From Mastigias papua (Eukaryota; Cnidaria; Scyphozoa; Rhizostomeae; Mastigiidae): a stretch of DNA of 64,000 nt. Location: assembly GCA_964019165.1 (NCBI GenBank), contig OZ025269.1:8853191-8917190 (forward strand), given 5' to 3'. A model generated the notes under the pieces. The model was given only the letters and a program-made list of their open reading frames with translations, was not told where the DNA came from and made no database searches. This document shows, piece after piece, positions 14,629-57,113 of this stretch (positions are counted from its first letter, which is position 1; every line of letters begins with the position of its first letter). A program made the translations under genes and the position numbers.

Positions 14629-15428
14629 GACAATATGCGATGTGCTGATGACACCACATTGGTGGAAGACACTGAACATGGGATGAAAAACCTAATAAAA
14701 TGAGTAAAAGATGAAAGTTAGAAGGCTGGACTATATCTAAACATAAAAAAGACAAAGCTTATGACAACAGATAATATAACAGAATTCAAAATTGATGATG
14801 AATATATAGAAATAGTGGAAAGTTTCATATTCTTAGGTAGCCAAATAACAAGAAATGGAGGCAGCGATAGTGAAATAAGAAGGAGGATAGGATTGACCCG
14901 AACAACAATGAAAAAGTTAGCACATGTGATAAAGAACAATGATTTAACTCTGAAGACAAAAATTAGACTAGTAAACACCTTAATATTTTCTGTTTTTTTG
15001 TATGGATGTGAGAGCTGGACTATAAGGAAAAACAAAAGAAAAAAGATAGATGCTTTAGAGCTCTGGTGTTGGAGAAAACTATTAAAAATTTCATGGATAG
15101 ATAAAATTACCAATGCAAATGTATTAGCACAAATCCAACCAGTCATATCACTTGAAGGAAAAATAAACAATCAAAAGCTTAGCTATTTTGGGCACATTAT
15201 GAGAAGCAAAGATAGTTTGGAAAAGAGTATACTAGTAGGAAAATGTGAAGGAAAAAGGAAAAGAGGGAGGCAAAGGATGAGGTGGCATGACAATTTGAAG
15301 GAAGTAACTGGTAAAGATTTGATAGAGTTGAAAGAACTGGTCAAAGATAGAAGCAAGTGGAGACGTTTCGTGCAAGAAATCACCAGGAGTCGATAACGAC
15401 TCGACGGAACATGATGATGATGATGATG
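14629..15428 (+). mobile_element. 5'-truncated RTE/BovB-like LINE inserted in satellite
   Basis: An 800-bp insertion is bounded by the 13-bp duplication ATCACCATAAGAT. It begins inside the reverse transcriptase, at the ADD catalytic box, runs to the end of the ORF and finishes in a (GAT)n-type simple tail at about 15410-15428. A short 3' microsatellite and heavy 5' truncation are typical of RTE-clade elements that insert by target-primed reverse transcription. The orientation is plus. The insertion is younger than the monomer it interrupts, because the flanks rejoin without loss. Confidence 0.88.
14638..15396 (+). pseudogene. RTE-like reverse transcriptase, C-terminal part
   Basis: The frame opens with CADDT, the catalytic YADD-type box of an RNA-dependent DNA polymerase. 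It continues through two in-frame stops (TGA 14701-14703, TAG 14719-14721), then stays open for 211 codons to TAA at 15394-15396. Recognisable C-terminal landmarks are FLGSQITRNGG, LYGCESWT, ELWCWRKLL, FGHIMRS, a basic KRKRGRQRMRW stretch and DRSKWRRF. These match the thumb and tail of RTE/BovB-type LINE proteins as I know them. The apurinic endonuclease and most of the RT palm are missing, so it cannot be active. A host origin is unlikely given the flanking target duplication. Confidence 0.88.
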
Positions 15429-18400: not shown

Positions 18401-20848
18401 GACTTTGCACACATGCGTATTTTAGGCCCATCACAAGCAATGACATTATTTGCATATACTGCTGTATGATTGATATTCAGTGGAAGTACGTCAATGTCAT
18501 GCATTAAACGTCTTTTACATGTATGGTTGCACCGATGCCAGTAGTTTAGCCAATGTTTCCACCTCAAATTAACCTTAGTCTTTGTTTTTACACTATATAC
18601 AGCTTTTACGTGCTTTACATGTAGCAAAACTGACAATACTATGCAAGGCCTACAATCACTATAAGTACGTTAGTCAACGCTCCAAAACATAATCTAAGCA
18701 TGTTTCTACAGTCAATCTAGCATTTATCATATCATATCACCATCAGATCTGTAGTCATTGCTGTAGTGTCAGACTTTGCACACATGCGTATTTTAGGCCC
18801 ATCACAAGCAAAGACATTATTTGCATATACTGCTGTATGATTGATATTCAGTGGAAGTACGTCAATGTCATGCATTAAACGTCTTTTACATGTATGGTTA
18901 CACCGGTGCCAGTAGTTTACCCAATGTTTCCAACTCAAATTAGCCTTAGTCTTTGTTGGTACACTATATACAGCTTTTAAGTGCTTTACATGTAGCAAAG
19001 CTGACAATACTATGCAAGGCCTACAGTCACTATTATTACGTTAGTCTTAGCTCCAAAACATAATCTAAGCATGTTTCTACAGTCATTCTAGCATTTATCA
19101 TATCATATCACCATCAGATCTGTAGTCATTGCTGTATTGTCAGACTTTGCACACTATGTATTGTAGGCCCATCTCAAGCAGTGACAATATGTGTATATAT
19201 TGATGTATGATTGAAATTGAGTAGAAGTGCGTCAATGTCATGCATTAAACGTCTTTTACATATATGGTTGCACCGATGCCAGTAGTTTAGCTAATGTTTC
19301 CTACTCAAATTAGCCTTAGTCTTTGTTTCTACACTATATTCAGCCTTAACGTGCTTTACATCTAGCAACATTGACAATACTATGCATGGCCTTCAATCAC
19401 TATAAGTACATGAGTTATAGCTACAAAACATAATCTACGCATGTTTCTACAGTCATTCTACTATTTATCATATCATATCACCATCAGTTCTGTAGTCATT
19501 GCTGTATTGTCAGACCTTGCACACATATGTATTGTAGGCCCATCTCATGCAATGACAATATGTGCATATACTGTTGTATGATTGACATTAAGTGGAAGTG
19601 CCTCAATCTCATGCATTAAACGTCTTTTAACTCTATGGTTGCACTGATGCCAGTAGATTAGAAAATGTTTCCTACTCAAATTAGCATCAGTCTTTGTTTT
19701 TACACTATAAACAGCTTTAAAGTGCTTTACATGTAGCTAAACTGACAATACCATGCATGGCCTTCAGTTATTTTACGTATGTGAGTTATAGCTCCAAAAC
19801 ATAATCTAAGCATGTTTCTACAGTCAATCTAGCATTTATCATATCATATCACCATCAGATCTGTAGTCATTGCTGTATTGTCAGAGCTTGCACACATATG
19901 TCTTTTAGGCCCATCACAAGCAATAACAATATGTGCATATACTGCTGTATGATTGAAATTGAGTAGAAGTGCGTCAATGTCATGCATTAAACGTCTTTTA
20001 CATATATGGTTGCACCGATGCCAGTAGTTTAGCCACTGTTTCCTACTCAAATTAGCCTTAGTCTTTGTTTCTACACTATATTCAGCTTTAACGTGCTTTA
20101 CATGTAGCAAAATTGACAATACTATGCAAGGCCTTCATTCACTATAAGTACGTGAGTTATAGCTCCAAAACATAATCTACGCATGTTTCTAAAGTTATTC
20201 TACTATTTATCATATCATATCACCATCATATCTGTATTCATTGCTGTATTGTCAGACTTTGCACCCATATGTATTGTAGGCCCATTTGAAGCAATGACAT
20301 TATTTGCATATACTGCTGTATGATTGACATTAAGTGGAAGTGCCTCAATCTCATGCATTAAACGTCTTTTAAATCTATGGTTGCACTGATGCCAGTAGGT
20401 TAGAAAATGCATCCTTCTCAAGTTAACTTTAGTCTTTGTTTCTACACTATATACAGCTTTAAAGTACTTTACATGTAGCAACACTGACAATACTGTGCAA
20501 GGCCCACAATCACTATAAGTACGTGAGTCATAGCTCCAAAACATAATCTAAGCATGTTTCTACAGTCAATCTAGCATTTATCATATCATACCACCATCAG
20601 ATCTGTAGTCATTGTTGTATTTTTAGACTTTGCACACATACTTATGTTAGGCCCATCACAATCAATGACAATATGTGCATATTCTGCTGCATTATTGAGA
20701 TTGAGTTGAAGTGCGTCAATTTCATGCATTAAACGTCTTTTACATCTATGGTTCCACCGATGTCCCTTTGTTAACCAATGTTTCCTACTCAAATTAGCCT
20801 TAGTCTTTGTTTTTATACTATATACAGCTTTACATTGCTTTACATGTA
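15429..20848. repeat. 371-bp satellite array, middle block
   Basis: The satellite resumes after the LINE and runs about 14.6 monomers to the TA at 20847-20848. It includes two almost identical neighbours (16188-16558 and 16559-16929) and a second similar pair near 18361-19100. From about 19100 rightwards monomers carry many more private changes than those at 1-9000. Confidence 0.96.
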
Positions 20849-21127
20849 CAATACCCGACAAAAGTCCAGGGACACTTTGCACTTTTTTCAGTCTGCAAGA
20901 AACTTTCATTCCCCTCTCCCCCTGAAACAATGTTGGTTGTCTGGAGAAGTACCTGCGATAATGGGAGAATTTAGCGTGCACGCCAACTTCAAATGTATCA
21001 CAAACGAATCAAAATTGTTCTAGCGGGAAGGGTTTTTAATGTTTGTAGCAACTATGACAATATGTAGAGGAAAATGGTTTTTTTATCTGTTTCTTCTAAG
21101 TGTCCCAAGGACTTTTGTCCACTATTG
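20849..21127. repeat. Left 279-bp MITE-like module of composite copy 1
   Basis: It starts CAATACCCGACAAAAGTCC and ends GGACTTTTGTCCACTATTG, a terminal inverted repeat of about 28 bp with a small mismatch block. A second inverted pair inside (CCCCTGAAACAATGTTG against a degraded partner) makes it largely self-complementary. Its outer side abuts TA, its inner side abuts TCTGG. Confidence 0.85.
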
Positions 21128-21240
21128 TCTGGTGTCAAATTTGAAAGATAAAAGCTATTTGGCTGCAATCATGGCGATCATAGGTTGTTCGGGGGCGCTG
21201 ATTACGATAGTGACAACAGTTTTTACGTATCTTTATCCTA

Positions 21241-21259
21241 TGACGTCATGCTGACGTCA
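21241..21259. promoter_or_regulatory. Paired CRE-like TGACGTCA octamers
   Basis: There are two perfect TGACGTCA octamers, at 21241-21248 and 21252-21259, separated by TGC. The octamer is the known binding site of CREB/ATF bZIP proteins. Both are intact in the second copy at 47241-47259, where flanking CCCT/AGGG extends the palindrome. A promoter role is inference. Confidence 0.45.
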
Positions 21260-22092
21260 CAGTGTAGATTTATTGGGCTTGTCTCTTGAAGGTGCATATG
21301 AACAGTACTGTTTTAAACACGAGTGCAACTGTACGTCATGCTCATAAATATATGAGGCTCTAGCTTCTATATAGCAAAAACGCAGAAGAATTATGTGCAG
21401 TAGTTTGCGCTTAACATCGTATTAATGACGTAGCCTCGTAATCGTGAACTTGAATGTAGGAATTGAACAACTGTCATAGGCGGCTGCAGATGGCTACAAA
21501 TGTGTACCATAAGGGTACACAGAGATTGAAATGAGATGACGAGAGAAGCGAAAATTACTGATGAGAATAATGAAGTTGTTAATTTGTGGCGAAAGGAGTT
21601 TAACTTGCCGCATAGTGAAATCACATTTCGGTGTAGGATCTCTGAATCTAGAGTAAACGCATAGGCAAGCAGTGTATGGAGTCAAAACCACTCAAAAAAG
21701 AGTTATGAGCCTCCAGCACTAACTAGAAGGGAGAAGGGTCGTTTTCTCAGAAATTTTAGGTCATGACAGAACAGATTCAGGCCCTCTGAAGAGGCCAGAA
21801 AGGCTATGAGGGGAGGGGCAAGGCCTCCCCATCTTCGGGGATCCAGATAATGAGCACACAAGTAAATTCGATGATGATAATATAGGGTATGCTGTTCAAC
21901 CTGTTATCACTTCTAGCCCCCTTGACTACCTTAACAGTCAGTTTGAATTATGGAAAGATACGGGAAATGATTATTTAACAAAATAAAGTGGACAAACTAC
22001 GTTCTGTGGAATACAATACATGCAATACATTACACGGCTCAGCGTCCTTCAATGCAAACCAGACTGAACAACAACAATAATATGCACTTGCG

Positions 22093-22520
22093 ACAGTTTA
22101 CACGGTTAACACTCACAGTTTACACTTGAAAATCAGGCGAAAAAGGGTGCTTCCCTTGACGAAAGCAAAAAAGGTGACCACCATGCCAGGTGTACACTAT
22201 CTATGTACATGCTTTAATGATTTTTCATGAATTTTTTAGTATACTGGTAAGGAAATAATGAGGAAACACTCCACGGTTTACACTTTTTTGCATAAAGAAT
22301 CACATGACCTAACTCTTAATACCTTGGAAAGTGTAAACCGTGGAAAAAGGCCAATTTTCATACCACTACTACGTTTTCTATAAACTTGAATGTTGTTGAT
22401 GGGTGTACACATATTGTGTACATCTTTTACGTATTTTACACAAATTAAATACTAAGCGTATGCAGAAATACAGAGCTTTTTGCAAGTGAAAACTGTGGTG
22501 TAAAACATGTAAACTGTGGA
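22093..22520. repeat. Palindromic GTTTACAC-box module, copy 1
   Basis: Boxes of the form (A/G)GTTTACAC sit forward at the left and reversed at the right of a ~425-bp interval, with an inner hairpin pair. Several boxes have decayed here (GGTTAACAC, AAAACATGTAAACTG). The cleaner version is in the second element at 48093-48518. Confidence 0.65.
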
Positions 22521-23557
22521 ATGCATAGCAACAACACACTGCGGGATACTTATTGCATTCCGTTGTTGTCAAGCTGCATACAAAAGCGTAGGTACAAAAA
22601 GGACAGAGGAAGGGGCAATTACAGCATTGATCTGAAGTGACAAAATGTAACAATAAACTGCCAATGAGCAAAACAACAGCCACATAGAGTGACTGTCTCT
22701 TCACCAGACATGTGAATCTAGCGAACATATTGGCGGTTGGCATCATTCATTATTGTCTCTATCTCTAGTGCATCAATAAATTGTTGTTGTTATCTAGTGA
22801 AGCCATTTAGATTACTAGTGTGAATGTACTTTTGATCGTTGTTCTTTTTAGCCAACTAGTAATTGTGTAACACGAAGGAAACTTTGAATATCCCTGCCGT
22901 CTGTTCTGTCTGTTTTGCTGATAACGGAAGTATTCCTGAAATTTCGCCATGCAGACAGGCATATGTAATCAATAGCGAATGTTTTCATTGGGGGTGTTTC
23001 TTGGGTACAATTTGAACTGTAATGCATAGCCAGTTAACACACCAGCCATAAAAGCAGTGCACATATAACGTCTCTTGTATAGAAAAAGTTGCCAAAATAC
23101 ATAAGCAGAATATATTTTAGGAATTTGAATAAGAACGAATGGTGAAATTAATAAGTTACGGGCTGCATCTGCGTAACCATAGCAATACTACCGTTAGTAC
23201 ATGTTCTAACGTCTGTCTTGGCCTCGTTTACAAGTTCTTGCAAAGTTCAAGTAAAGCCGGTATTTAGAGCGTTTTTGCAAGCTATGTTGCTCGAACTGTT
23301 CCTATATTTTCAAGATAAGTCTCGTGAGGCACGTTTCGTCGATTACATTGATTTTCGAAGATAAAAATTATGACCTAATACCGATTTGGGTAGGAGCACT
23401 GCCAGAGGGAGAGAATGATAGACACCCACGTGACATGACATCACAAAGATGACTTAAAGAAATTTAAATATCACTATCTTTTTCAGCACCATCGGTTACC
23501 CCTTTACCACCCAACACATTGCAGGTGTAACGTGTTTTGAAAAATTTCAATACCAGA

Positions 23558-23835
23558 CAATACCCGACAGAAGTCCTGGGACACTTTGCACTTTTTGCAG
23601 TCTGCAATAAACTTTCACTCCCCTCTCCCCCTGAAACAATGTTGGTTACCTGGAGAAGTACCTGCAATAATGGGAAAATTTCGCGTGCACGCCACCTTCA
23701 AATGTACCACAAACGAATCAACATTGTTCTGGGGGGAAGGGGGTGCATGTTTGTAGCAACTATGACAATATGTAGAGGAAAATGGTTTTTTTATCTGTTT
23801 CTTCTAAGTGTCCCAGGGACCTTTGTCCACTATTG
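23558..23835. repeat. Right 278-bp MITE-like module of composite copy 1
   Basis: This is a direct repeat of the module at 20849-21127, with the same TIRs and only scattered differences. Its outer end is followed by TA and the resumed satellite. Confidence 0.85.
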
Positions 23836-24840
23836 TAGCAAAACTGACAATACCATGCATGGCGTTCAGTAACTATAAGTACGTTAGTCATAGCCCCGAA
23901 ACATAATTTAAGCATGTTTCTACAGTCAATCTAGCATTTTTCATATCATATCACCATCAGATCTGTAATCATTGCTGTATTGTCAGACTTTGCACCCATA
24001 CGTATTTTAGGCCCATCACAAGCAATGACAATATGTGCATATACTGCTGTATGATTGAAATTGAGTGGAAGTGCGTTAATGCCTTGCATTACCCGTCTTT
24101 TACATCTATGGATGCACCGATGCCAGTAGTTTAGTCAATGTTTCCTATTCAAATTAACCTTAGTCTTTGTTTTTACACTATATACAGCTTTAAAGTGCTT
24201 TACATGTAGCAACACTGACAACACAATGCAAGGCCTTCAATCACTATAAGTACGTGAGTCATAGCTCCAAAACATAATCTGAGCATGTTTCTACAGTCAA
24301 TCTAGCATTTATCATATCATATCACCATCAGATCTGTAGTCATTGCTGTATTGTAAGACTTTGCACACATACGTATGTTAGGCCCATCACAAGCAATGAC
24401 AATATGTGCATATACTGCTGTATGATTGATATTGAGTGCAAGTACGTCAATGTCATGCATTAACCGTCTTCTAGCTGTATGGGTGCACCGATGCCAGTAG
24501 TTTCGCTAATGTTTCCTACTCAAGTTAGCCTTACTCATTGTTTTTATACCATATACAGCTTTAGAGTTCTTTACATGTAGCAACACTTGCAATTCTATGC
24601 AAGGCCTTCAATCAGTATAAGTGCGTGAGTCATAGCTCCAAAACATAATCTAAGCATGTTGTTACAGTCAATCTAGCATTTATAATTTCATATGACTATC
24701 AGATCTGTAGTCATTGCTGTATTGTCAGACTTTGCACACATACGTAGTTTAGGCCCATCACAAGCAATGATAATATATGTATATACTTCTGTATGATTGA
24801 AATTGAGTGGAAGTGAGTCATTTTCATGCACTAAACGTCT
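23836..24840. repeat. 371-bp satellite array, right end
   Basis: About 2.7 monomers complete the array. The last recognisable satellite text is the GTCATTTTCATGCACTAAACGTCTTA variant of the usual motif near 24816-24841; after that similarity stops. These edge monomers differ from the consensus more than those further left. Confidence 0.92.
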
Positions 24841-25400
24841 TATGAAATGTACGCTTTTTTGTATAGGATGCTTTCTTCCCCCTTTAGCTTGGATGGTTCT
24901 TAATATGGTGTCAAATCCAGCCTTAACTGTTTTGTACGTGCTTCTTGAAATTCTTATCGCAGCAGAGGTTTATAATAGTTCGTCTTTGAAATAGAGACAC
25001 TTGTTCTAACAGAATCCTAGAGTGGTTTTGTGGCACTTTGTTTTGAGTATCATCGAAGTAGAGAACCAGTTGCTTCGGACAATTGTTGGCATTGTTGCTA
25101 GATCAATTATTTCTTTATGTTAAGAAATTCTTCTCTGGCATTATTAGCAAAATTGGAAATCTGGAACATGGGTAATACCTTGGTGTGGGGTTCAAGCTTA
25201 TATGGTAGGGTAGTAATGCCCTGTGGAAATGAAATCTCCCATCAATAGTTTTTAGTGAAGTAGGGGTTAATTATGATTCTGTAATTAATATGCCATTGAA
25301 TTTGCCTTGATGTTTCTGCCATATTTGTCAAGGCAACGGTAATTGTTTGGGTGTGATCTTTGGGTGTGGCTTTATATTTTGAAACTTTGAGACTGTTAGA
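24841..25400. other. Unannotated stretch
   Basis: This is AT-rich sequence between the satellite edge and a LINE tail. I see no gene, RNA or repeat here; a 65-codon plus ORF (24797-24994) starts in satellite and looks accidental. Confidence 0.6.
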
Positions 25401-26125: not shown

Positions 26126-28007
26126 TTAGTTACAAATTTTACAGTTACATTCCTCTCCACTCCAGCTTTTTATGCATTTTCTAAATGAGCAGACGGAGGT
26201 TTTGCTTTTAATTTCATTCTCAAGGTAGTTCCATAATATACTGCCTCGAAAGGTTAAACTGTCATTTCCATATCTAACAGTGATGGTTTGACGCAGCATT
26301 AGCAGGTTATTAGAGCGTAAATCATATCTACTGCTCTATTCAAGGAACATGTTCCACATAAAAGATGGATTTTCTTTGTTGATACATTTGTAAACCTCAA
26401 GCATTAACTTCTGCAAATTTTTGATATGAATTTTGCATTCATTCGATTTCCGTAGAAGTTCTTCAAATGAAGAAGAATAGTCATTGTGTAGAATTCGAAG
26501 TGCTCTCTTGTGGGTGCGGTTTAAGTCTTCATTGGCTACTTTTCCATAAAACATCCATATTAAGGAACAATAATTAAACTGAGATATTATAAATGAGTTG
26601 TAGAGAATAATCAATTGTTTCTTATCAAGGTAATTTGAGATTCTAGAAAAAGCACTAATTTTTGTGTTTACTTTTGGCAAATGTTAGATACATGTTGGTT
26701 AAACTTTAATTTAGAATCAACTTTCACCCCTAGTAGAGTAACATTGTTAGCAACATCAATTGAGCGCCCTCCTACTTCCAGAATAATGCTCTCATTAGAA
26801 TTCAATGCAAAAAATATAGCTTGAAATTTTGACGCATTCACAACCATTTGATTTGTTTTACACCAAGACATCGATCTAGATATATCTTCTTCAAGACTTG
26901 GAGCAACATCTTCAAAAGAATTGCCACAAGAGAAAATAGGGTTATCGTCTGCAAAATTGCATACCTCCGACTGCTCAATCATATATAGGAAATCATTAAT
27001 ATATTGAAGAATAACGGGCCTAGCACAGATCCTTGAGGTACTCCGGTCTTCGTTTTCAACCAACCACTGTAGGTTGTGCCTATTTTTACTCTTTGTTTCC
27101 TATTTGAAAAGTAATTTGCAATTAGTCTTAGACTCTGTGCCCCAAAGCCATATGCATTTAATTTTGCAATTAGCAAATCGTGTGGCATGCAATCAAATGC
27201 CTTCGACAGATCCATCGAGATCATGCCTACAACACCTTTCGAATCTAACATCTTGCGTATTTTCTCGGTTACTCTGATGAGTGCATGTTCAGCACTATAG
27301 TTCTTTCTATAAGCACAAAGCAGATTAGATATTTTAGTATCGATGAAAGGGACGATCTGTTTTTCTATCAAGCGTTCGAAAACTTTAGACATTGCTGAGG
27401 GTACACTAATAGGTCTATAGTTAACTTTGGAGGTGGGATCAGAAGCTTTATGAATAGCAGATACATCTACTGCCTTTAGACGATCTGGGAATTTGCAAGA
27501 AATGAGCATATGATTAAAGTATTCCGCTAATTGAGTATGGCAGATTCCGGTGATTTTCTTTATAATGTCAATTGAGAGTGCACCGCTAGTTTTCTTTGAA
27601 CGATCTAAGTTGTTTATTTCATTTGCAATATCTACACAGCTGATTGGCTGAAACTCAAATGGTTGAGAACATTGTATGTTGTTTTTAATCAAAACCACAC
27701 TGGGATGATTTTCATATTTTCTGAGCGCATCAATAATTGGATCTCTTAATGGGACATAAGATGGTGTAGTCACATAGGGCTCAATAGTTAGTGAATCTGT
27801 AATATTGATAAAGTAGTGATTAAAGCACTCTGCTATTTGCCTTTCACAACTTATTATGGATTCATTTTTAACCAAGGTAACTTTTTGTGAAACACTGCCT
27901 GATTTATTGGAGAATAGAGGCTTGAAAGTTTTCCTGAAGCGCTTGCCATTTGTTAGATTAGACACATCTAAGCTCCTATAAAATTCCGTTTTGGCTAATT
28001 TGTTCAT
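26126..28007 (-). pseudogene. LINE reverse transcriptase with frameshifts
   Basis: Reading leftwards from 28007, a 342-codon frame covers the RT fingers and palm. Landmarks are VNYRPISV, FERLIEKQI, the AYRKNYSAEHAL region, MDLSKAFDCMPHDLL and TGVPQGSVLGPLFF. A frameshift near 27000 leads to INDFLYM and the catalytic FADDN box (FADD for YADD). A second shift near 26675 leads to KVNTKISAFSRI and the thumb (LYNSFIISQFNYCSLIW). An in-frame TAG at 26336-26338 precedes the conserved end SLTFRGSILWN...CNCKIC, finishing at TAA 26126-26128. The domain order and the PQGSVLGP and (Y/F)ADD motifs are diagnostic of LINE RTs; assignment to a CR1/Jockey-like group is from general pattern. Confidence 0.88.
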
Positions 28008-28010
28008 TTT

Positions 28011-31000
28011 GACAACTGTTCATTATGTGAATAGTCAATGGCGGGGACGCATGTCACCCAGTCGAGTCATGTATAGATATAGAGTGAGTAGTTTAAATAG
28101 TTTCATGAAATTGCGGTATACCAACGATGACTACTCTCTGGAGACGATTCCGATTCTACAACGACTTACAGACCGCTCGCAGTCATCACAGAATATCATA
28201 TCACCCTAGTTTAACATCTAAAATATAGTTCAGCCCACAACGATCATAATAATAATTTTTTTAAACTTTGACATATATAAACTAAACATACAAATAAAAA
28301 TCTCTCTAATGATAGGTAATTTGTACTTGGCTGGCCTAATTACAGATAATGTTAAAACAAGAAAAAAAGTAGAGACATATTGCATATATGAACAAGCTAG
28401 CGGAGGAAAGAAAGTTATTACTAAGAAAGAAGTTCCGGGTTAGTCAGGGCCTGTTGCGCTTGCAGAATATGTAATAAGTTGTGCGAATTATTACACTCGT
28501 TAATTTAGTAATTATGAAGATAGTGTGCCAATAGTTAGTTATCATCACAATTTCCATCTCTTGCCTATTTATTTTTACATTTTACAGGACCAGACCTTTC
28601 AGATTTTATGAAAGCGCCCTTTCTACATTTAGAGATATTCCCATTTGAAAGAATCCATACGATGAAACTATGGAGGAAATCACCGATTATTTTTGTGAAT
28701 AAAGGTACTAGCTTCTATAGCATTACTGGACAAATCTAGCTAATCACAAATTCCAAGCATAAAGGGTATTTATCCTTCCCGTAAGCCTCGTTGCTATATT
28801 TAGGAATTTTCGTAAGTGTACGTTAGAGGTCCTGCATAAAATTATCTAAAGCTTTCAGTCTTGCTCAGTTTCTGAACCTCTTTTACCGTACTAACATAGA
28901 CTTCCATGCAGGAATGTCAAGTGTGCCGCATCTCGCGGGATTTGCACGCATTCTTTTGTCAAACCCGTATTCCCGCACGCTTGCTCTAAAATAGGCCATC
29001 AGTCTCATTTTTCCAAAAAACTTAATAGACTACAATAACATTGACATTGTTTTTGTAAAAGCCATCCGGTACTCGAGATTTGATATGAAACAGTTCAAAT
29101 TTAATTTAGTGTCGTTTCAATCCTAGATAAGGATCTATCTTGTATTTGCATGGTAAGAAAGAGGGACGTGCTACAAGAATCAATAATTTGTATTTTGCCA
29201 CAATCAGTCCTGTGCGCTTATTAACTTTGTAAGTATACGCTTGTTTGTCGGCAAGGCACAGCCAAAAAAAGTTGAGGGGGGGTGGAGAATACAAGCAATA
29301 AATTGCTTGACAAAAGTTAAACAAATCGCTGGCTTGCGAAAAATGGGACTAAAGCCTCCATCCCCCCTGCCAACAATGTGGCAGGTTTATCCCTCTTCTC
29401 CATTCCAAAACTTGACAGCCCTGTCTATGGAACAGTAATATAATGGCAAAATACAGGGTTTACAGACAAAATTCAGAACATTGTAGGTTCTTGCATCCCA
29501 CGCATATCAGTAAATCCTTCCCAAATGTATGGCTAACATTGCTGCATGAGTTCATTTAAATTTGTGAAGTTCAAAATACCAAATATTAAACTACATAACC
29601 ATTTGAGCAAATTGTGAACAACCGAAACATGCATCTGTGCAACATATGAGACCTACTATCGATACATCAGTTAATTTCGCTCACTGAACAGAACTAGTAT
29701 ACCATTTTTCGATACATTATAAATACATCATACTTACTAGACTTCTTACAGAACAAACAAGAATCTTCAACTTTAGCTATCAATGGTACTTTGTAAAGAA
29801 TCGCTGTTGCTGACAAGTTTATATTTATGCAAATGGAAGGCCTACCCCCAATAAACCATACACGATTCGATAGCTCTCAGTGATTAGATAACGAAGATAC
29901 CATCATTTAGCCCATAGCTCAACGTTGCGAGAATTTGTAGCCTGAAAAAACAACTTACCACTAGCTGATATGGCTGCCAAGTTTTCTCGCTAAACATTTG
30001 TTCATAAGTATCCTTGCTCAAGGTCTTGTTCAAGAAGTTCCTCATTGTTTGAACTCCAACGATCAAATTGTACCACTAAGCGTTACTTAATAGTTCCTTA
30101 ATTTCTACTGCACAATTGGTGCCATAAAAATGGTACAGACACAAGTGAAACGTAGACATTCTGAATTTTGCCTTTGATTTTGGCTATAACTTGAGACCAA
30201 ACCACGAAGAAGGTCAATGAGACACTTGACACAAGCATAGCAACAAATCTATTCTGGTTCTGGTTGCAAATGAATGGAACCGGCTTCCTAATTCTTGATT
30301 CCTTGCAGTTACATATAATTTTGAAATTAAGCAAGTCCTCAATGAATTTTTCTTTGGTAGATTAAGCTTTTTAGATGTTTAAGTATGCTACATTAAGTTA
30401 CTTATAAGTTGGTTCTTCATAAACCAGATGTAAGCTGTAAGCATGCAGGTTTAGCAGGTCAAGTAAACTGCAGGTCACAGCCAAAAACAGGAAGTTATGC
30501 GGATGTTGTTAATCCCTTGTGGCTGCGTGGATGACTTGCTGCCATCCATTATTTTTCTCATACTCCATTGTGCGCAATTTTTATCCAGACACTGAGATGT
30601 ATTTTCATTTTCGGTTGACTGCAAGTACCCTATACAAGAAAAAGCTGATTATACGACCTTTCTCACTCAACAGACATTAAGAAAACAAGCCAAGTTCAGA
30701 CAGAAAAGTGCCTTTCTTGTAACAGAAGCATGTATTTAGTCTTTGGTGAACTAGTTTTCCGAGAATTTGCCAACTCGATGGCACCTGCGGGGAACTTTCC
30801 CCCTTGCCTTCGGATAACTATTACTAATTTGAAGTATACACATGTATTACAGATAATCAAAGCAGTCACACTTTAGACAAATTCCTGGATGAAAAATATA
30901 CATTTGCAGCGCAAAGTGTCTCCAATAGTCCTTTCAAAAAAAAGACAACAAGAGCTGACGATGTACATAGGCGGTCGCAATAAAAGCAAGGGGCTGGAAA

Positions 31001-45579: not shown

Positions 45580-46848
45580 CTTTGTTTTCTATGCCATGCA
45601 TAAAGTCACATTGCCCACAACTGCCCGAAAAGACATAATATCAGTCATTGTAATAGCTGTCTTGGATGGGGTCACATAGCAGGAAGCTGTGCCAATAATA
45701 ACAATCAACATATCAGTAGTAAGCTTTCTGTAAACTTCAAAGGGGTGTTTCAATATTGGTTTAGAGCGATGAACATCCCTCAGTCCTCTATGCTGGGAAT
45801 GCTTCTGATATCGAACCCAAATCTTTAGGCCAATCCTTTGTTTCGTGGAAAGTTCTTGGTGGTCTTCAGCTGTCAGCCTTAAGTGATACTACGTTAATGA
45901 AATCAATTTTATTCCAAGAAACTTTCAGGCAACTTATGACGTCTCGACCATCCAATTCTCTCACTAAGATTAGACGTACTCTCAATACCTGTGTTTCGAT
46001 TGCGAGACAAGCTTTGAATTCCTAAGGTTTAGGTTTCGTCCCAATGTCTTTGGCTGGTAGTATCGTTATATAAGATTGTGAATTTCTGAATTGTGATAAT
46101 GTGCTATAACCTTTGCAGTATACTGTAGGGTGAGGCTTTATTTTTGCGAATTATTCTCAACTAAATATATCGGATGCATCATATTTTCTTGTTAGATCCC
46201 ATGGTAGTACTACATTCAGTTCAGTGTCCCCTGTTTAGGCCCATTTCCTAAAAAGCTTCCACAGCTGCATCGCGGGTTTCTATTGCTGATTCTTCCTTTA
46301 TGCTCCGGCAATCATTCACTCAAGGGCTAGTTGCTGCTGTTCTTGCGAACAATGTTACTCTCTCATGTTGAACAGAATGTTTTTATTCAAGGGTTTGTTC
46401 CTAAAAGCTATGCTAATTAGTTTGGGATGGTATGTAATGTTGAAGCTTCAGTAGACGCCTAGTTGTGGATTGCACATACTATCAGTCAAGCTCATCAGCG
46501 TAGTTTTCCAGTTAGAATAATGAATGCTTCCAGTTCATCAATCGAGCTTCATGCAGGGAAGAAAATAGCGTCATTTTACCAGTGTTTGAGGAACCTTGGG
46601 CAAAGAATTTCGCAACACATATTTGTGGTGGCTTTAGAGGACCGTCAGAAATGAGCAAAACTACATCTTCCTAGTTAACATCTGCGATCTGCGATTAGTC
46701 CCAAGTTAAGTCAACATGATAGAGGGAAACTCTTGGAAACTTTACTTTCATTTCCTGACGCTTTTTAATTATAGCCCTGGCCATACTACTGTAGTCGAAC
46801 TTAGAGCTGACACTGGAGATTCTGTTCCCATCCGGCAATATCCAGGTA
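45580..46848 (+). pseudogene. Decayed Ty3/gypsy gag-pol, 5' part
   Basis: The start encodes two tandem zinc knuckles, the first with an internal stop (C-F-L-C-H-A-*-S-H-I-A-H-N-C) and the second intact (CNSCLGWGHIAGSC, C-x2-C-x4-H-x4-C, ending at 45690). These are the RNA-binding nucleocapsid motifs of Gag. After about 700 bp of broken frames comes FPVRIMNASSSSIELHAGKKIA (46508-46573), the protease-RT linker pattern of Ty3/gypsy. The first strands of RT follow near 46730-46846 with PGHTTVVE, DTGDSVPIRQYP. The text stops at 46848, where the composite element has inserted. No LTRs were identified. Confidence 0.75.
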
Positions 46849-47126
46849 CAATACCCGACAAAAGTCCTGGGACACTTTGCACTTTTTGCAGTCTGCAACA
46901 AACTTTCATTCCCCTCTCCCCCTGAAACAATGTTGGTTTTCTGGAGAAGTACCTGCGATAATGGGAAAATTTTGCGTGCACGCCAACTTCAAATGTACCA
47001 CAAACGAATCAACATTGTTCTAGGGGGAAGGGGGGTGCATGTTTGTAGCAACTATGACAATATGTAGAGGAAAATGGTTTTTTATCTGTTTCTTCTAAGT
47101 GTCCCAAGGACTTTTGTCCACTATTG
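46849..47126. repeat. Left 278-bp MITE-like module of composite copy 2
   Basis: Direct repeat of 49559-49836 and of the two modules in copy 1, with inverted ends and an inner inverted pair. Confidence 0.85.
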
Positions 47127-47240
47127 TCTGGTATCAAATTTGAAAGATAAAAGCTATTTGGCTGCAATCATGGGCGATCATAGGGTTTTCGGGGGCGCTG
47201 ATTACGATAGTGACAACAGTTTTTACGTATCTTTACCCTA

Positions 47241-47259
47241 TGACGTCATGCTGACGTCA
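47241..47259. promoter_or_regulatory. Paired CRE-like octamers in a palindrome
   Basis: TGACGTCA lies at 47241-47248 and 47252-47259, nested in CCCTA...AGGG inverted flanks (TTTACCCT on the left, AGGGTAAA on the right). The octamers are conserved in both copies of the element. Binding by CREB/ATF-type proteins is inference. Confidence 0.45.
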
Positions 47260-48092
47260 CAGGGTAAATTTATTTGGCTTGTCTCTTGGAGGTGCATATA
47301 AACGGTACTTTTGTACACACAAGTGCAACTGTAAGCCATGTTCATAAAAATATAAGGCTCGAGCTTCTATATAGCAAAAACGCAGAAGAATTATGAGCAG
47401 TAGTTTGCGCTTAACATCGTATTAAAGACGTAGCCTCGTAATCGTGAGCTTGACTGTAGGAATTGAACAACTGTCATAGGCGGCTGCAGATGGCCACAAA
47501 AGTGTACCATAAGGGTACACAGAGATTGAAATGAGATGACGAGAGAAGCGAAAATTACTGATGAGAAGAATGAAGTTGTTAATTTGTGGCGAAAGGAGTT
47601 TAACTTGCCGCATAGTGACATCACAACTCGGTGTAGGATCTCTAAATCTAGAGTAAACGCATAGGCAAACAGTGTATGGAGTCAAAACCATCCAGAAAAA
47701 GAGTTGTGAGCCTCCAGCACTAACTAGAAGGGAGAAGGGTCGTTTTCTCAGAAATTTTAAGTCATGACAGAACAGATTCAGGCCCTCTGAAGAGGCCAGA
47801 AAGGCTATGAGGGGAGGGGCAAGGCCTCCCCATCTTCGGGGACCCAGATAATGAGCACACAAGTAAATTCGATGGTGATAATATATGGTATGCTGTACAA
47901 CCTGTTATCACTTCTAGCACTCTTGACCACCTTAACAGTCAGTTTGAATTATGGAAAGATGCGGGAAATGATTATTTGACAAAATAAAGTGGACAAACTA
48001 CGTTGTATGGAATACAATACATGCAATACATTACACGGTTCAGCGTCCTTCAATGCAAATGAGACTGAACAACAACAACAATATGCACTAGC

Positions 48093-48518
48093 GACAGTTT
48101 ACACGGTTTACACTCACAGTTTACACTTGAAAATCAGGCGAAAAAGGGTGCTTCCCTTGACGAAAGCAAAAAGGTGACCACCATGCCAGGTGTACACTAT
48201 CTATGTACATGCTTTAATGATTTTTCATGAATTTTTTAGTATACTGGTAAGGAAATAATGAGGAAAAACTCCACGGTTTACACTTTTTTGCATAAAGAAT
48301 CACATGATCTAACTCTTAATACCTTCGAAAGTGTAAACCGTGGAAAAAGGCCAATTTTCATACCACTACTACGTTTTCTATAAACTTGAATATTGTTGAT
48401 AGGTGTACACATATTGTGTACATCTTTTACGTATTTTACACAAATTAAATACTAAGCGTATGCAGAAATACAGAGCTTTTTGCAAGTGTAAACTGTGGTG
48501 TAAACCGTGTAAACTGTG
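48093..48518. repeat. Palindromic eight-box GTTTACAC module, copy 2
   Basis: Forward boxes lie at 48095-48104, 48105-48113, 48117-48126 and 48274-48283. Reversed boxes lie at 48331-48340, 48486-48495, 48498-48507 and 48507-48516. All pairs are centred on about 48306. The outer arms ACAGTTTACACGGTTTACAC are ~34-bp inverted repeats, and the inner pair CCACGGTTTACACTTT / AAAGTGTAAACCGTGG forms its own hairpin. It could be a small nested TIR element or a transposase or host-factor binding array. Confidence 0.8.
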
Positions 48519-49558
48519 GAATGCATAGCAACAACACACTGCGGGATACTCATCGCATTCCGTTGTTGTCAAGCTGCATACAAAAGCGTAGGTACAAAAA
48601 GGACAGAGGGAGGGGCAATTACAGCATTGATCTGAAGTGACAAAATGTAACAATAAAACTGCCAATGAGCAAAACAACAGCCACATAGAGTGACCGTCTC
48701 TTCACCAGACATGTGAACCTGACGAACATATTGGCAGTTAGCATCGTTCATTACTGTCTCTATCTCTAGTGCTTCAATAAATTGTTGTTGTTATCTAGTG
48801 AAGCCATTTAGATTACTAGTGTGAATGTAATTTTGGTCGTTGTTCTTTTTAGCTAACTAGTAATTGTGTAACACGGAGGAGACTTTGAATATCCCTGCCG
48901 TCTGTTCTGTCTGTTTTGCTGATAACGGAAGTATTCCTGAAATTTCGCCATGCAGACAGGCATATGTAATCAATAGCGAATGTTTTCAATGGGGGTGTTT
49001 CTTGGGTACATTTTGAACTGTAATGCATAGCCAGTTAACACACCAGCCATAAAAGCAGTGCACATATAACGCCTCTTGTATAGAAAAAGTTGCCAAAATA
49101 CATAAGCAGAATATATTTTAGGCATTTGAATAAGAACGAATGGTGAAATTAATAAGTTACGGACTGCATCTGCGTAACCATAGCAATACTACCGTTAGTA
49201 CATGTGCTAACGTCTGTCTTGGCCTCGTTTGCAAGTTCTGGCAAAGTTCAAGTAAAGCCGGTATTTAGAGCGTTTTTGCAAGCTATGTTGCTCGAACTGT
49301 TCCTATATTTTCAAGATAAGTCTCGTGAGGCTCGTTTCGTCGATTACATTGTTGTTGGAAGATAAAAATTATGTCCTAATACCGATTTGGGTAGGAGCAC
49401 TGCCGGAGGGACAGAATGATAGATACCCACGTGACATGACGTCACAGAGATGACTTACAGAATTTTAAATATCACCATCGTTTTTAGCACCATCGATTAC
49501 CCCTTGACCAACCAACACATTGCAGGTATAACGTGTTTTGAAAAATTTCAATACCAGA

Positions 49559-49836
49559 CAATACCCGACAAAAGTCCTGGGACACTTTGCACTTTTTGCA
49601 GTCTGCAACAAACTTTCATTCCCCTCTCCCCCTGAAACAATGTTGGTTTTCTGGAGAAGTACCTGCGATAATGGGAAAATTTTGCGTGCACGCCAACTTC
49701 AAATGTACCACAAACGAATCAACATTGTTCTAGGGGGAAGGGGGGTGCATGTTTGTAGCAACTATGACAATATGTAGAGGAAAATGGTTTTTTATCTGTT
49801 TCTTCTAAGTGTCCCAAGGACTTTTGTCCACTATTG
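49559..49836. repeat. Right 278-bp MITE-like module of composite copy 2
   Basis: Direct repeat of 46849-47126; its outer end CTATTG abuts TA and the resumed gypsy text. Confidence 0.85.
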
Positions 49837-49900
49837 TAGGTTACCATTTTATAAGGTTGAACTTAACGAACACCAGGCTGGTCATTCTAGGGAAGGCAAG
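49837..49900 (+). pseudogene. Gypsy pol remnant right of the composite element
   Basis: Joining 46848 to 49839 keeps a readable frame (RLPFYKVELNEHQ), the position of the usual RxxP start of the RT fingers. Similarity fades within about 20 codons. Confidence 0.45.
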
Positions 49901-53063: not shown

Positions 53064-56000
53064 TTACGGATTATAAATGTTCATTCCATATCTTCGAACT
53101 GGATGTCTTTTACGTCGTGGATAACGATTATTTCCTTCTGCACCCGGCAATCCATTTATTCCGGGGCAGTTGATATAGTCATCGTATTGGTTCATATCAT
53201 CATTTTCATCGTTGTCACCATCAAAAGAACCATGAAACTTCTTGAAAAACGATACATTTCGTGTAACGTAGTGTCCATTTCGAACAACGGTAACACGATT
53301 GCCTTTCCTTTTCACGATTTTGTATGGCTTGGGGTTGTCACGTGCAGACAATTTAGTTATGTTCGAATTCTTTACCGGGATGATATCGCCTTCTACGAGA
53401 TCTGATTCTGTTGCTCGACATTTCCGATCTGCATAAGATTTCATCCGCTCTTTTGCTTGAGTATCTCTGTCTTTCAAGTCAACACTGGCATTATTGCTTA
53501 CAAGTTGTGGGAGCTTTGTAGTAATTTCCCCATTAAATAGTAAGTTAGCCGGTGATTTTCCTGTTGTTGCATGAGGAGTCGCACGGTAGTTCAATAGATA
53601 TTTATATATTGAACGTTTCCACTCCTTGCCTTCTAGATGTGCAGTCTTTATAGCTTTTGCTAGGGGTTGCATAAATCTTTCAACTTCAGCATTACCTTGT
53701 GGCCAATAAGGTGAACTTGTTGTGTGTTTTGCGCCCAATTCCTTCATAAAGTGATAAAACTGTGTGCCATGAAAAGGTGGTCCATTGTCACTTTTGACAA
53801 CTTTAGGGAGTCCATGCGTTGCAACTATACGTTCTAATTTCGGAATGGTAATCTCTGCAGATGTTGATGTTATAATTTCAACTTCTGGAAAGCGACTAAA
53901 AGCATCAATCACTACCAGTAAATAATAACCACCAGGAAAAGGACCGCAAAAATCAATGTGAACTGTATGCCATGGCCCAGGAGGTAAATCACTCATAATC
54001 AATGGTTCCGGCCCTGGAACTGTGCTAGTTACTTGACAGGATAAACACGGATCAATGAGCTGTTTTGCCATCTCATCAATGCCTGGAAACCAAACTTTTT
54101 CTCTTAGTAATTGCTTAGTTTTTACAAGGCCCTGATGTCCTTCGTGGGCAATACTTAGGGCTTGCTGTCGAAGAGCAGCAGGCAGAACAATACGGGAACC
54201 TCGTAGGATAATATCACTGTTGACACAAAAAGTTAATTCATCTTTGACTCGACGGAAATATTGCAGTTCAGAAAGCGAAATGGTCGAATATAGGGGTTTG
54301 TCTTGGCAATCTAAGGATTTCCAGAGACCACTTTCAATCAACGTAGCGAGATGTTGCATAGTTGTATCAGCTTTTGTAGCCTGTTGTACTTGTGACAAAT
54401 TCATTGCCCGAGGAACTGCATGCTCAGTAAGAAACTTTAAATATGCTGTTGTTATGGTCTGACAATCTTGATTTAAAGATGCTTGATTTAAGCTATGATG
54501 TCGTGATAAGAAATTAGAAGGATTTTCCATACCTTTAACGTATCTGACGTCAAAATCAAAATCTTGAATTCGTAGGTTCCATCGCTCAATTCGTGCAGGG
54601 GGCTTTGACATCGAATTGTTTAAGATCAGTTCTACTGGTTTGCAATCTGTTACAAGAGTAAAATGTCCACCAAATAGATACAAATATAGCCGTTCCATGG
54701 CCCAAACAATGGCCAATGCTTCTCGTTCAGTTTGGGAATATTTCTGTTCCACAGGTGTGAGTGCACGACTAATGTAGGCAACAATTCTACGATTATCTTC
54801 ACCAGGAGAATGTTGCGATAAGATTGCAGATAAGCCTGTGGGAGAGGCGTCAGTAATGAGCTCTGTATTCTTGTGCTTATCAAAATAATCCATCACTGTA
54901 TCACTGGTGAGAGCTGCCTTTGTTGCTTGAAAAGCTTGCTCGTGCCGATATGTCCAGCAAAACACTGTATTCTTCTTCGTTAGTGTGCGAAGAGGTTCAG
55001 TCAAATCACTAAAATTTGGAATAAATTTTGAGCAATAAGTAGCTAACCCGAGGAAACTGCGTACGTCCTTGCAACTTGTCGGTGGGGGAGCATCGTGAAT
55101 TGCAGCAACTTTGATAGGATCTGGTGATATACCCTCTGAGGAAAATACAAATCCAAAAAATGGTAGTTTGTCTTGATTGAATAAGCACTTCTGTTTATTC
55201 AAGGTCTAACCTTTGTCCGCTAATCTTTGAAAAACAGAACGTAGCGTGTTGTCATGCTCAGTCTGTGTGGCACCAGACACGATTACATCGTCGCTAATGT
55301 TAATGACATTGGGAATATCTCGAAGCAGTTCTTGAATGATATGCTGAAAGATTTCACTTGCTGAACAAGTTCCGAAAGTGAGCTTCCTGTAGCGGCGTAA
55401 TCCCTGATGTGTAGCGAATGTGGTGATATAACGACTTTCGGGAGCGAGGGTTAATTGGTGATAACCAGCTCTTAAGTCTAATTTTGAAAAAACTTTCGCG
55501 CCATTCATGGAATGAATCAAATCATCTATTGTGGGTTTATGATGTCGCTCTCTGCGGATAGCTTTATTCGCCATACGCATGTCAACACATAACCGCACAC
55601 CACCATCTTTCTTGGGTACAATGACAAATGGTGAGACAAATGGGGTCGGTCCGTCGACTTTTTCGATAATCCCTTGCTGTTCTAACACCACAAGTTCTTG
55701 CTCAAACTTTTTGCGTAAATGAAAAGGAATTCTCCTAGCTGGTTGTACAACAGGGGTAACTGAGCTATCAATATGTAGGTGAACTTCATAGTCTTTCAAA
55801 ACGCCAACACCATCAAAAATACGTGGAAATTCTGCAATGAGTTGCTTATAAACGTGTTTATCCTTGGCTTCCACGTGATTGATATGCAATTGTATTAAGC
55901 TAAGTGCCTTTGCAGAATTGTAACTGAGGAGACAACCGTACTGTCCTTTAACGACATGAACAGTAGTTGCGTGAAAGGTCTGATTGCTCTCCATGGTAGC

Positions 56001-57113
56001 AGCAAGTTTTCCCAAGATAGGAAGCTGGGTGGATGCACCATACGCAAAAATACGGGCTGTTGAACGTTGGAGGGAAACTCTATGCTTCAAACGATCGAAA
56101 GTAGGTTCATCAATGATATCTAGGGACGCACCGGTGTCCATGGTCATAGAGATGGGCGTATCATTGAGTTTCACTGTAACAATTGGCGTTGTATTCGCAG
56201 CTTTCACTTGAACCGTAAAAAGATATTCCTCTTCCGCACAAGTAGTGTAACAGACATTAGTGGAAGGCGTTGCATCTGCAGATACTTGCTTGACGGCTTG
56301 TCGTGGGGGGCGAGAGAAACAGCGTTTGCTACTACGACATACCAATGCAAAATGTTTAGCCTTGCCGCATGCGTTACAACTTTTACCTTTTGCGGGGCAG
56401 GGACGCAAACGATGAGGCCAGGATCCACCCCAATGATTACAACGATTTTGAGGTGAGGGTGTTGTAGGCGGGCGTGACTGTGAGAGTGGTTTGTGGTGAG
56501 GCGCAGAGCTAGGTTTGGATGAAATGACTTGCGCTTGGTCGTCGGATATTGGCGAAGTTTGTAGGGAGGTCTCCATACCAGCAGCGTGAATTTCGCTTGA
56601 CTCAAATGCACGGGCTTTCGCCAACAGCTGAGATAACATAACATCCGCTTCGACGAAGGCATAACGACGTAACCTTTTCGAAGAGCAGTTTTGAATGAGG
56701 ACAGATTTGATTTCTTTATCCACATCTGCTAAATCACAGGTGGAGGCAAGTTTGCGCAACCTGGTAACGTACTGGTCCACTGTCTCATCAGAACGTTGAG
56801 ATTCCTTGCGAAATGTAAAGATCTCAAAATCGGCATTCTTTAAAGGCGTAAAATAAGCATCTAGTTTCTGCATAGCTAAAGTATAATTGGCTGCATCACC
56901 AGTATCAGGTTATGTATAAAAAATATCCTGTGTAGCCGGTCCAGATTGATAAAGTAGTAGAGCACGCTTTCGCGTTGGACCGCTAATTCCAAGAGCAGCG
57001 ATATACGTCTCAAAACGCCGTTTCCATAATTTCCAACGTGGGCCGATCGAAGACGGGTCGGAATATGGATCGAAAAACGGTAAAGAAGGCAAATCATTCG
57101 AACTAGTAGTCAT
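53064..57113 (-). pseudogene. Gypsy gag-pol polyprotein, two nonsense codons
   Basis: A single frame of 1350 codons runs from ATG at 57111-57113 to a stop at 53064-53066. Gag has PRWKLWKRRFETYI and a Cys-rich region with a knuckle CNACGKAKHFALVC. Aspartic protease shows MTMDTGAS. RT shows FVSPFVIVPKKDGGVRLCVDMR, FSKLDLRAGYHQ and the catalytic ISDD box (Ser for Tyr, also known in mag-like RTs). RNase H shows TDASPTGLSAILSQ and ERLYLYLFGG. Integrase has an H-x3-H/C-x2-C zinc site (HEGHQGL...CLSC) and catalytic D, D, E in HIDFCGPF, KSDNGPPF and GNAEVERF. A basic end follows. TAA at 56910-56912 and TAG at 55206-55208 interrupt the frame; there is no frameshift. It is otherwise full length. Confidence 0.92.

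Follow-up and report, generated by a model that had tools for sequence, protein, structure and literature searches.

Mobile composites bounded by two miniature inverted-repeat transposable elements (MITEs) are described from bacteria as TIME-COMPs (PMC4133298, PMC13367494), tandem arrays are formed in corals by the MITEs termed CMITEs (PMC2872659), and MITEs derived from hAT elements occur in tandem in cod (PMC12368964). These and the papers below are cited for the parts of their text available to us; nothing closer is described in the available parts of PMC3212995, PMC12595863 and PMC6887750. Here we analyse a 64,000-nucleotide stretch of Mastigias papua contig OZ025269.1 (positions 8,853,191 to 8,917,190), hereafter the window, in which a unit composed of a 278-bp hairpin (the module), a 2.4-kb core and a directly repeated second module occurs twice. 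The unit is read here, with a confidence just short of even, as the n = 1 member of a mobile family, (module-core)n-module, that is non-autonomous and would owe its insertion at TA to a Tc1-type transposase and its multiplication to a circle or concatemer stage. Each step from MITE to bracketed mobile unit to young satellite array was observed in this one genome, nearly all with the same TA-inserting ends. A literature search found no published sequence of the module tips.

The two units lie at 20849-23835 and 46849-49836 and are bordered by TA on either side, as the first-pass annotation of the window had stated. The sizes of 278, 2430 and 278 bp that it gave hold nearly throughout, the left module of unit 1 (L1) being 279 bp and the core of unit 2 being 2432 bp long. 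The features of both units, in window positions, are as follows.

20847..20848, no strand: left TA target duplication of unit 1
20849..21127, plus strand: left module L1, a 279-bp hairpin with ends CAATACCCGAC... and ...GTCCACTATTG
21128..23557, plus strand: core of unit 1, 2430 bp
21551..21772, plus strand: decayed transposase N-terminal region in core 1, 29.9% identical to the transposase frame of a 5-kb relative (E 1.3e-4 against the window)
23558..23835, plus strand: right module R1, 278 bp
23836..23837, no strand: right TA target duplication of unit 1
46847..46848, no strand: left TA of unit 2
46849..47126, plus strand: left module L2, 278 bp
47127..49558, plus strand: core of unit 2, 2432 bp
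47549..47773, plus strand: decayed transposase region in core 2 (E 4.7e-6 on the core alone, 0.003 against the window)
48094..48517: nested inverted repeats enclosing the central palindrome region of core 2
48257..48359, no strand: central palindrome region of core 2, sharing 66.7% identity with the intergenic palindrome of the 5-kb relative
49559..49836, plus strand: right module R2, 278 bp, identical to L2 at 278 of 278 positions
49837..49838, no strand: right TA of unit 2

Excision of unit 1 restores its host DNA, as had been claimed: the flanks joined with one TA form 299 nt that align without gaps to a 371-bp satellite at 89% identity. This satellite of 371-bp monomers occupies 1-20848 and 23834-24841 of the window and is broken at about 14629-15416 by other DNA with a 224-residue open frame (14722-15396). 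The surroundings had been called unrelated, and the 1.5-kb flanks of the two units indeed share no significant match (best E 0.28). The 'gypsy pol' named at unit 2 was not confirmed; one frame stays open over the joined flanks, and its 59 residues gave no Pfam domain at E 0.1 and no BLAST match at E 0.01 among 120 related pol proteins. Segmental duplication was rejected on the unrelated flanks of the window units and of 29 loci of the family, whose left flanks (200 bp) do not match one another.

The module carries its own terminal inverted repeats, in agreement with the annotation, and is close to a single long hairpin. L2 aligned to its own reverse complement scores 197, against a maximum of 111 in 200 shuffles, and the outer inverted repeats, with termini CAATA...TATTG, span 24-25 nt and are 83-84% complementary. 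Inner and outer ends had been taken as equivalent, and this did not hold. The inner ends are flanked by core edges and not by TA: the core starts with TCTGGTAT (TCTGGTGT in unit 1) and finishes with ATACCAGA, approximately a mirror pair, and an exact 8-bp match like that of the core edges was found in 2 of 200,000 random 2430-bp segments of the window. The two modules of unit 2 match at all 278 positions, while those of unit 1 are separated by 21 substitutions and one gap. Of the 23 columns that vary among these four modules, 10 are changed in L1 only and 8 in R1 only, 4 show three states and 1 distinguishes unit 1 from unit 2; none distinguishes left from right. Together with the missing inner TA, this was a first sign against two independent modules.

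The comparison was then made over 15 units, with the second array module taken as the right module for L031, L033 and L055 and the last module for the C4, C5 and C6 arrays. Twenty-one variants were private to the left and right modules of one unit and no variant was one-sided across two or more units; omission of the old unit L052, the source of 11 variants, left 10 against 0. Left and right modules were identical in 9 of the 15 units, differed at 1-4 positions in 4, and differed at 18 and 23 alignment columns in L052 and unit 1, respectively. These counts bear on the bacterial-type composite, in which two independent MITEs would have inserted at a distance of 2.4 kb and the intervening DNA would have been mobilised by their outer ends. 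It is very unlikely in our judgement: TA-flanked solo modules do exist in the same genome, and mobilisation by a MITE composite is shown in bacteria for TIME-COMP (PMC4133298), but the inner ends lack TA and have near mirror-image flanks, no variant tells left from right modules over the 15 units, and the modules also form tandem arrays. What survives of the two-MITE composite proposed in the annotation is that two element copies bracket the core and move together, TA-bounded whole units being found at 10 loci and modules alone between TAs; the independent insertions are contradicted by the shared private variants (21 against 0), by the lack of inner TA and by the arrays. Its other suggestion, a distinct element with palindromic direct terminal repeats, comes nearer. 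The direct terminal repeats, which match exactly in 9 of 15 units, also resemble those of a miniature long terminal repeat (LTR) retrotransposon (TRIM/LARD). This candidate is extremely improbable and was rejected on its termini, which would be TG...CA instead of CAATA...TATTG, and on the target duplication of TA instead of 4-6 bp; by eye, the core edges also hold no primer-binding site or polypurine tract.

The distribution of the family was evaluated in the source genome (G000; 346.8 Mb in 172 contigs). Modules in rows every 2.71 kb were already visible in a module search in which 40 of 1217 candidates were scored. Pattern searches resulted in 395 TA-flanked outer left ends (at most one mismatch) and 280 core-to-module junctions (at most two mismatches) genome-wide, each reversed control pattern giving 0; their places were taken from the first 100 listed of each. 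Exact chaining of 47 outer ends on C1-C13, among the matches listed, gave n = 1 at 11, n = 2 at 4 and n = 8 at 2, the remaining 30 having no exact junction at the expected step and including solos as well as units with a mutated or rearranged junction. Chaining splits the C5 array into pieces at its missing module. By position only, and again among the matches listed, further arrays were seen as junction runs of 16 and 4 on C10 and of 7 on C1.

Thirty loci were read, these being exact left-end matches in listing order and not a random sample. The count of solos and units with their TA flanks that the annotation had asked for gave 17 left ends that lead from the module into a core, both window units and the C5 and C4 arrays among them, and 13 solo modules. 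Twelve solos have TA on both sides, eleven of them intact and one with an internal deletion; the thirteenth has TT on the right. At L036 (G000:C3:16959112) a solo module lacks its middle, and both remaining ends are 100% identical to L2. The solo module is a MITE in being short and non-coding, with terminal inverted repeats, a target site duplication and solo copies. At 11 of the 17 core-leading loci, 700 bp at the expected n = 1 end showed six full n = 1 units ending in TA, three that continue into core and two without a module there. Complete TA-bounded n = 1 units were found at 10 loci: both window units, C8, L032, L034, L039, L044, L048, L052 and L067. The C8 single unit and a C1 solo module have TA on either side of each. 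Right ends with no core after them (solos, n = 1 units and two arrays), whose right flanks lay outside the search pattern, are followed by TA in 22 of 23 cases. A preferred target was observed in addition: position -5 on the left is A at 24 of 30 ends, and offset 4 on the right is T at 15 of 23. Cores free of modules and shared flanks had been named as evidence that would speak against a mobile unit; the junctions examined included no such core, no genome-wide search for module-free cores having been made, and the flanks are not shared.

Larger arrays have the same borders. The C5 array consists of 24 modules and 24 cores over 65 kb and the C4 array of 9 modules and 8 cores over 22 kb, both with TA at the two borders; one module and the next core on C5 are interrupted by a stretch of N. 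At G000:C5:4252973-4257822 two cores are directly joined, the module and 16 bp of core end being absent between them. Repeats within an array are nearly identical, with mean differences per 2.71 kb of 1.7 on C5 (17 repeats, two diverged and the interrupted repeats left out) and 0.5 on C4 (7 of 8 repeats), compared with 57 between C5 and C4 repeats. Repeat length is likewise near-constant inside each array and ranges from 2708 to 2713 across arrays: mostly 2708 on C1, 2709 on C10, 2711 on C5, 2712 on C6 and 2713 in one C3 array, and 2710 on C4, C12 and C8 and in a second C3 array; a small number of odd steps occur on C1, C5 and C10. An 8.9-kb module spacing on C12 was considered as a possible autonomous version and rejected, as it is an n = 1 unit with another element nested in its core (L067 2055-8255; BEL/Pao-like by eye, with an 1866-residue open frame). 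Three other long module spacings measure 9.5, 9.1 and 6.1 kb.

Modules and repeats within a copy are as alike as would be expected had they been made from one circle or concatemer shortly before insertion. The main rival, unequal recombination after insertion, accounts for most of the same facts. It supposes the same non-autonomous unit of the Tc1 type, with arrays, solos and left/right identity arising after insertion by homologous recombination and gene conversion as in LTR elements, with no circle and no Rep. A series of n = 0, 1, 2, 8 and 24 between TA flanks is expected from unequal exchange, the private variants shared by left and right modules can come from conversion, and tandem arrays are on record for the Tc1 element Bari1 (PMC4877112) and for coral MITEs with similar spacers (PMC2872659). 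It nevertheless requires repeated recent expansion at several loci to reach near-zero divergence within arrays, and leaves unexplained the long arrays of a related 5-kb element with a Rep-like frame. We consider it a serious possibility that nonetheless falls short of probable.

Module and core also appear to share their history. Over 17 unit loci, identity to unit 2 co-varies between module and core (by eye, part of the core read). Three old modules (92-93%) are paired with old cores (90-92%), unit 1 is intermediate at 95% in both, and the other 13 loci, unit 2 included, are high, with modules at 98.6-100% and cores at 97.3-100%. This agreement opposes a scheme in which solo modules spread as MITEs and module-core circles integrate into resident solos by homologous recombination, the core then being a circle-hopping satellite and not cargo. 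Integration into an unrelated resident should also give different recombinants, whereas left and right modules share private variants. Solo and unit modules are intermixed in the module tree and tandem arrays do exist, both as that scheme would have it; we nevertheless hold it to be unlikely.

A relative with a transposase, which the annotation had advised looking for, was found in part. In a genome search for the DDE_3 domain, in which 150 of 628 candidates were scored, most rows belonged to a single open frame that recurs at intervals of ~5,047 bp; about 30 short contigs carry it, and C1 has two copies. In the repeat at L068 (G000:C103:14700-19800) the next copy on the contig lies 5,060 bp further, and a comparison at exactly 5,047 bp showed no alignment (18 of 54). 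The repeat contains a module homologue that is 62.5% identical over 277 bp (E 5e-13), with a global score of 114 where 300 shuffles reached at most 25 and with similar flanks, AAATTT..CAGA before and TCTG..AAATTT after. Its palindrome is homologous to the centre of the 2.4-kb core (66.7%, E 1.4e-5). The open transposase frame of 362 residues matches DDE_3 (E 5.8e-17) and HTH_Tnp_Tc3_2 (E 3e-9) and has 34 residues between D and E, the DD34E spacing that we take to be a mark of Tc1. A decayed piece of this transposase lies in the 2.4-kb core (27% over 78 residues in the core searched alone). On the opposite strand is an open Rep-like frame of 476 residues that matches REP_ORF2-G2P (E 4.2e-5) and in which the motifs HFH, YRYVVK and GPANCGKT were recognised by eye. 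Its matches to solved structures were all weak: the papillomavirus E1 helicase at residues 291-377 (E 0.29), a geminivirus Rep at residues 68-127 (E 1.1) and six others. Judged from sequence, the window family would class as a non-autonomous member of Tc1/mariner, with the TA target site duplication, terminal inverted repeats and a DDE transposase in a relative with related ends; the unit itself lacks a transposase.

The module-core family, which runs from n = 0 to about 24, would then descend from an element like the 5-kb relative, in which a module and a central palindrome are combined with a Tc1-type transposase frame and a Rep-like frame. Cleavage by a transposase in trans would take place at the outermost module tips, and the whole unit would be placed at TA in a preferred target of approximately A-N-S-TA-S-N-T. 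The inner tips would be poor substrates because they have no adjacent TA, and the unit would thereby stay together. Between jumps the family may exist as a circle of one module and one core, which a Rep-like protein might copy, in rolling-circle fashion, into head-to-tail concatemers, so that modules and repeats would be identical at the start of a new insertion. A possible engine for this copying is the Rep-like frame in the arrayed relative. Solo modules, the n = 0 form, would result either from recombination between modules or from transposition of a module.

Several observations weigh against this reading. The C5 array is irregular: two of its repeats have diverged, by 23 and 27 differences, one lacks a module, and a few repeat lengths are odd. 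The C6 array (G000:C6:13028566-13034267; 3 modules) has AAT on both sides in place of TA, an unusual target duplication. The 5-kb relative was read in one repeat, and its module has the opposite orientation to the transposase from that in the window units. The REP_ORF2-G2P match, at 24.2 bits, is under the curated cut-off of 27.8, and other weak matches of the frame are DUF6736 (0.0076), Glyco_hydro_42C (0.021) and Gemini_AL1 (0.051). This frame has no methionine before residue 110, and the gene could therefore be incomplete, spliced or no longer functional. A search of the 2.4-kb core for a remnant of Rep gave nothing (best E 0.13), and Rep may therefore not be ancestral to the 2.4-kb family. 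The circle is a form that we infer, none having been observed.

If the Rep-like frame is real and active, the 5-kb relative would be a hybrid of two transposition systems. More tentatively, we put forward a new class of eukaryotic element in which an HUH-Rep with a P-loop helicase part is joined to a Tc1-type transposase. Circles or concatemers would be generated from the hairpin module and inserted at TA as single or multimeric units, transposition and satellite formation would be one process, and the window units would be non-autonomous passengers. This joint proposal is possible and on the whole doubtful; the literature was not searched for the pairing of Rep with Tc1, and we do not claim that this pairing is unpublished. 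The combination of a transposase and a replication-like protein in one element is unusual and would matter if it holds up. If true, it would provide a testable route from mobile element to satellite DNA, with concatemers made before insertion rather than unequal exchange after it.

Further searches were made with parts of the unit. Core 2 has no Pfam match at E 1 in any of six frames (X placed at each stop), and no RNA family was found in the unit or in the 5-kb repeat. Near its 5' end core 2 holds a near-perfect 17-nt inverted repeat with TGACGTCA motifs (window 47232-47268), and a similar GACGTCACAG stands near the 3' end at about 49440. A protein search with the frame over the core-to-module junction gave 13 other proteins in public contigs, possibly from the same or other genomes; by reading, 12 have the core joined to a module (3 with a diverged module side) and 1 has another flank. 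A second protein-database search found two right ends with a TAY codon before them; the flank of one resembled a reverse transcriptase, a resemblance that was not confirmed. Viral contigs contained no exact match to three module/tip patterns and one core pattern, and two stretches in them that fit a pattern of the Rep-like protein were not confirmed. Elsewhere in the window, retroelement frames match Pfam RVT_1 (26982-28019 and 55209-56909) and integrase core with RVT_2 (58483-60769). For the pol protein at 53064-55205 the closest named matches come from the octocoral Paramuricea clavata (51-60% identity), and the best unnamed match over the full length reaches 65%.

Among known systems, the HUH-Rep elements comprise Helitrons, Replitrons and CRESS-type replicons. 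The Rep-like frame of the 5-kb relative may be akin to theirs, whereas here it stands beside a DDE transposase frame and the related family inserts at TA. Tc1/mariner elements and their MITEs share the TA duplication, the terminal inverted repeats and the DD34E frame of the 5-kb relative; unlike in these, the whole 278-bp hairpin is here directly repeated at both ends, with variable n and long arrays. The pDv element of Drosophila virilis, compared by description only, is likewise a transposon with long satellite-like direct terminal repeats (PMC3411249). Heterochromatic arrays of Bari1 are similar in that a Tc1 element stands in tandem, and differ in that, as far as the available text describes them, full Bari1 copies follow one another without alternation of module and core (PMC4877112). 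The coral CMITE arrays and CMITE-IN are also cnidarian MITEs in tandem with similar spacers, but they are of the piggyBac type with TTAA and about 100 bp long, and no 2.4-kb core is described for them in the available text (PMC2872659). In TIME-COMPs, as in the units described here, two MITE copies bracket and mobilise a core without a transposase; TIME-COMPs belong to the Tn3 family, with 5-bp duplications and in bacteria, whereas the modules of Mastigias papua are of recent common ancestry and extend into arrays.

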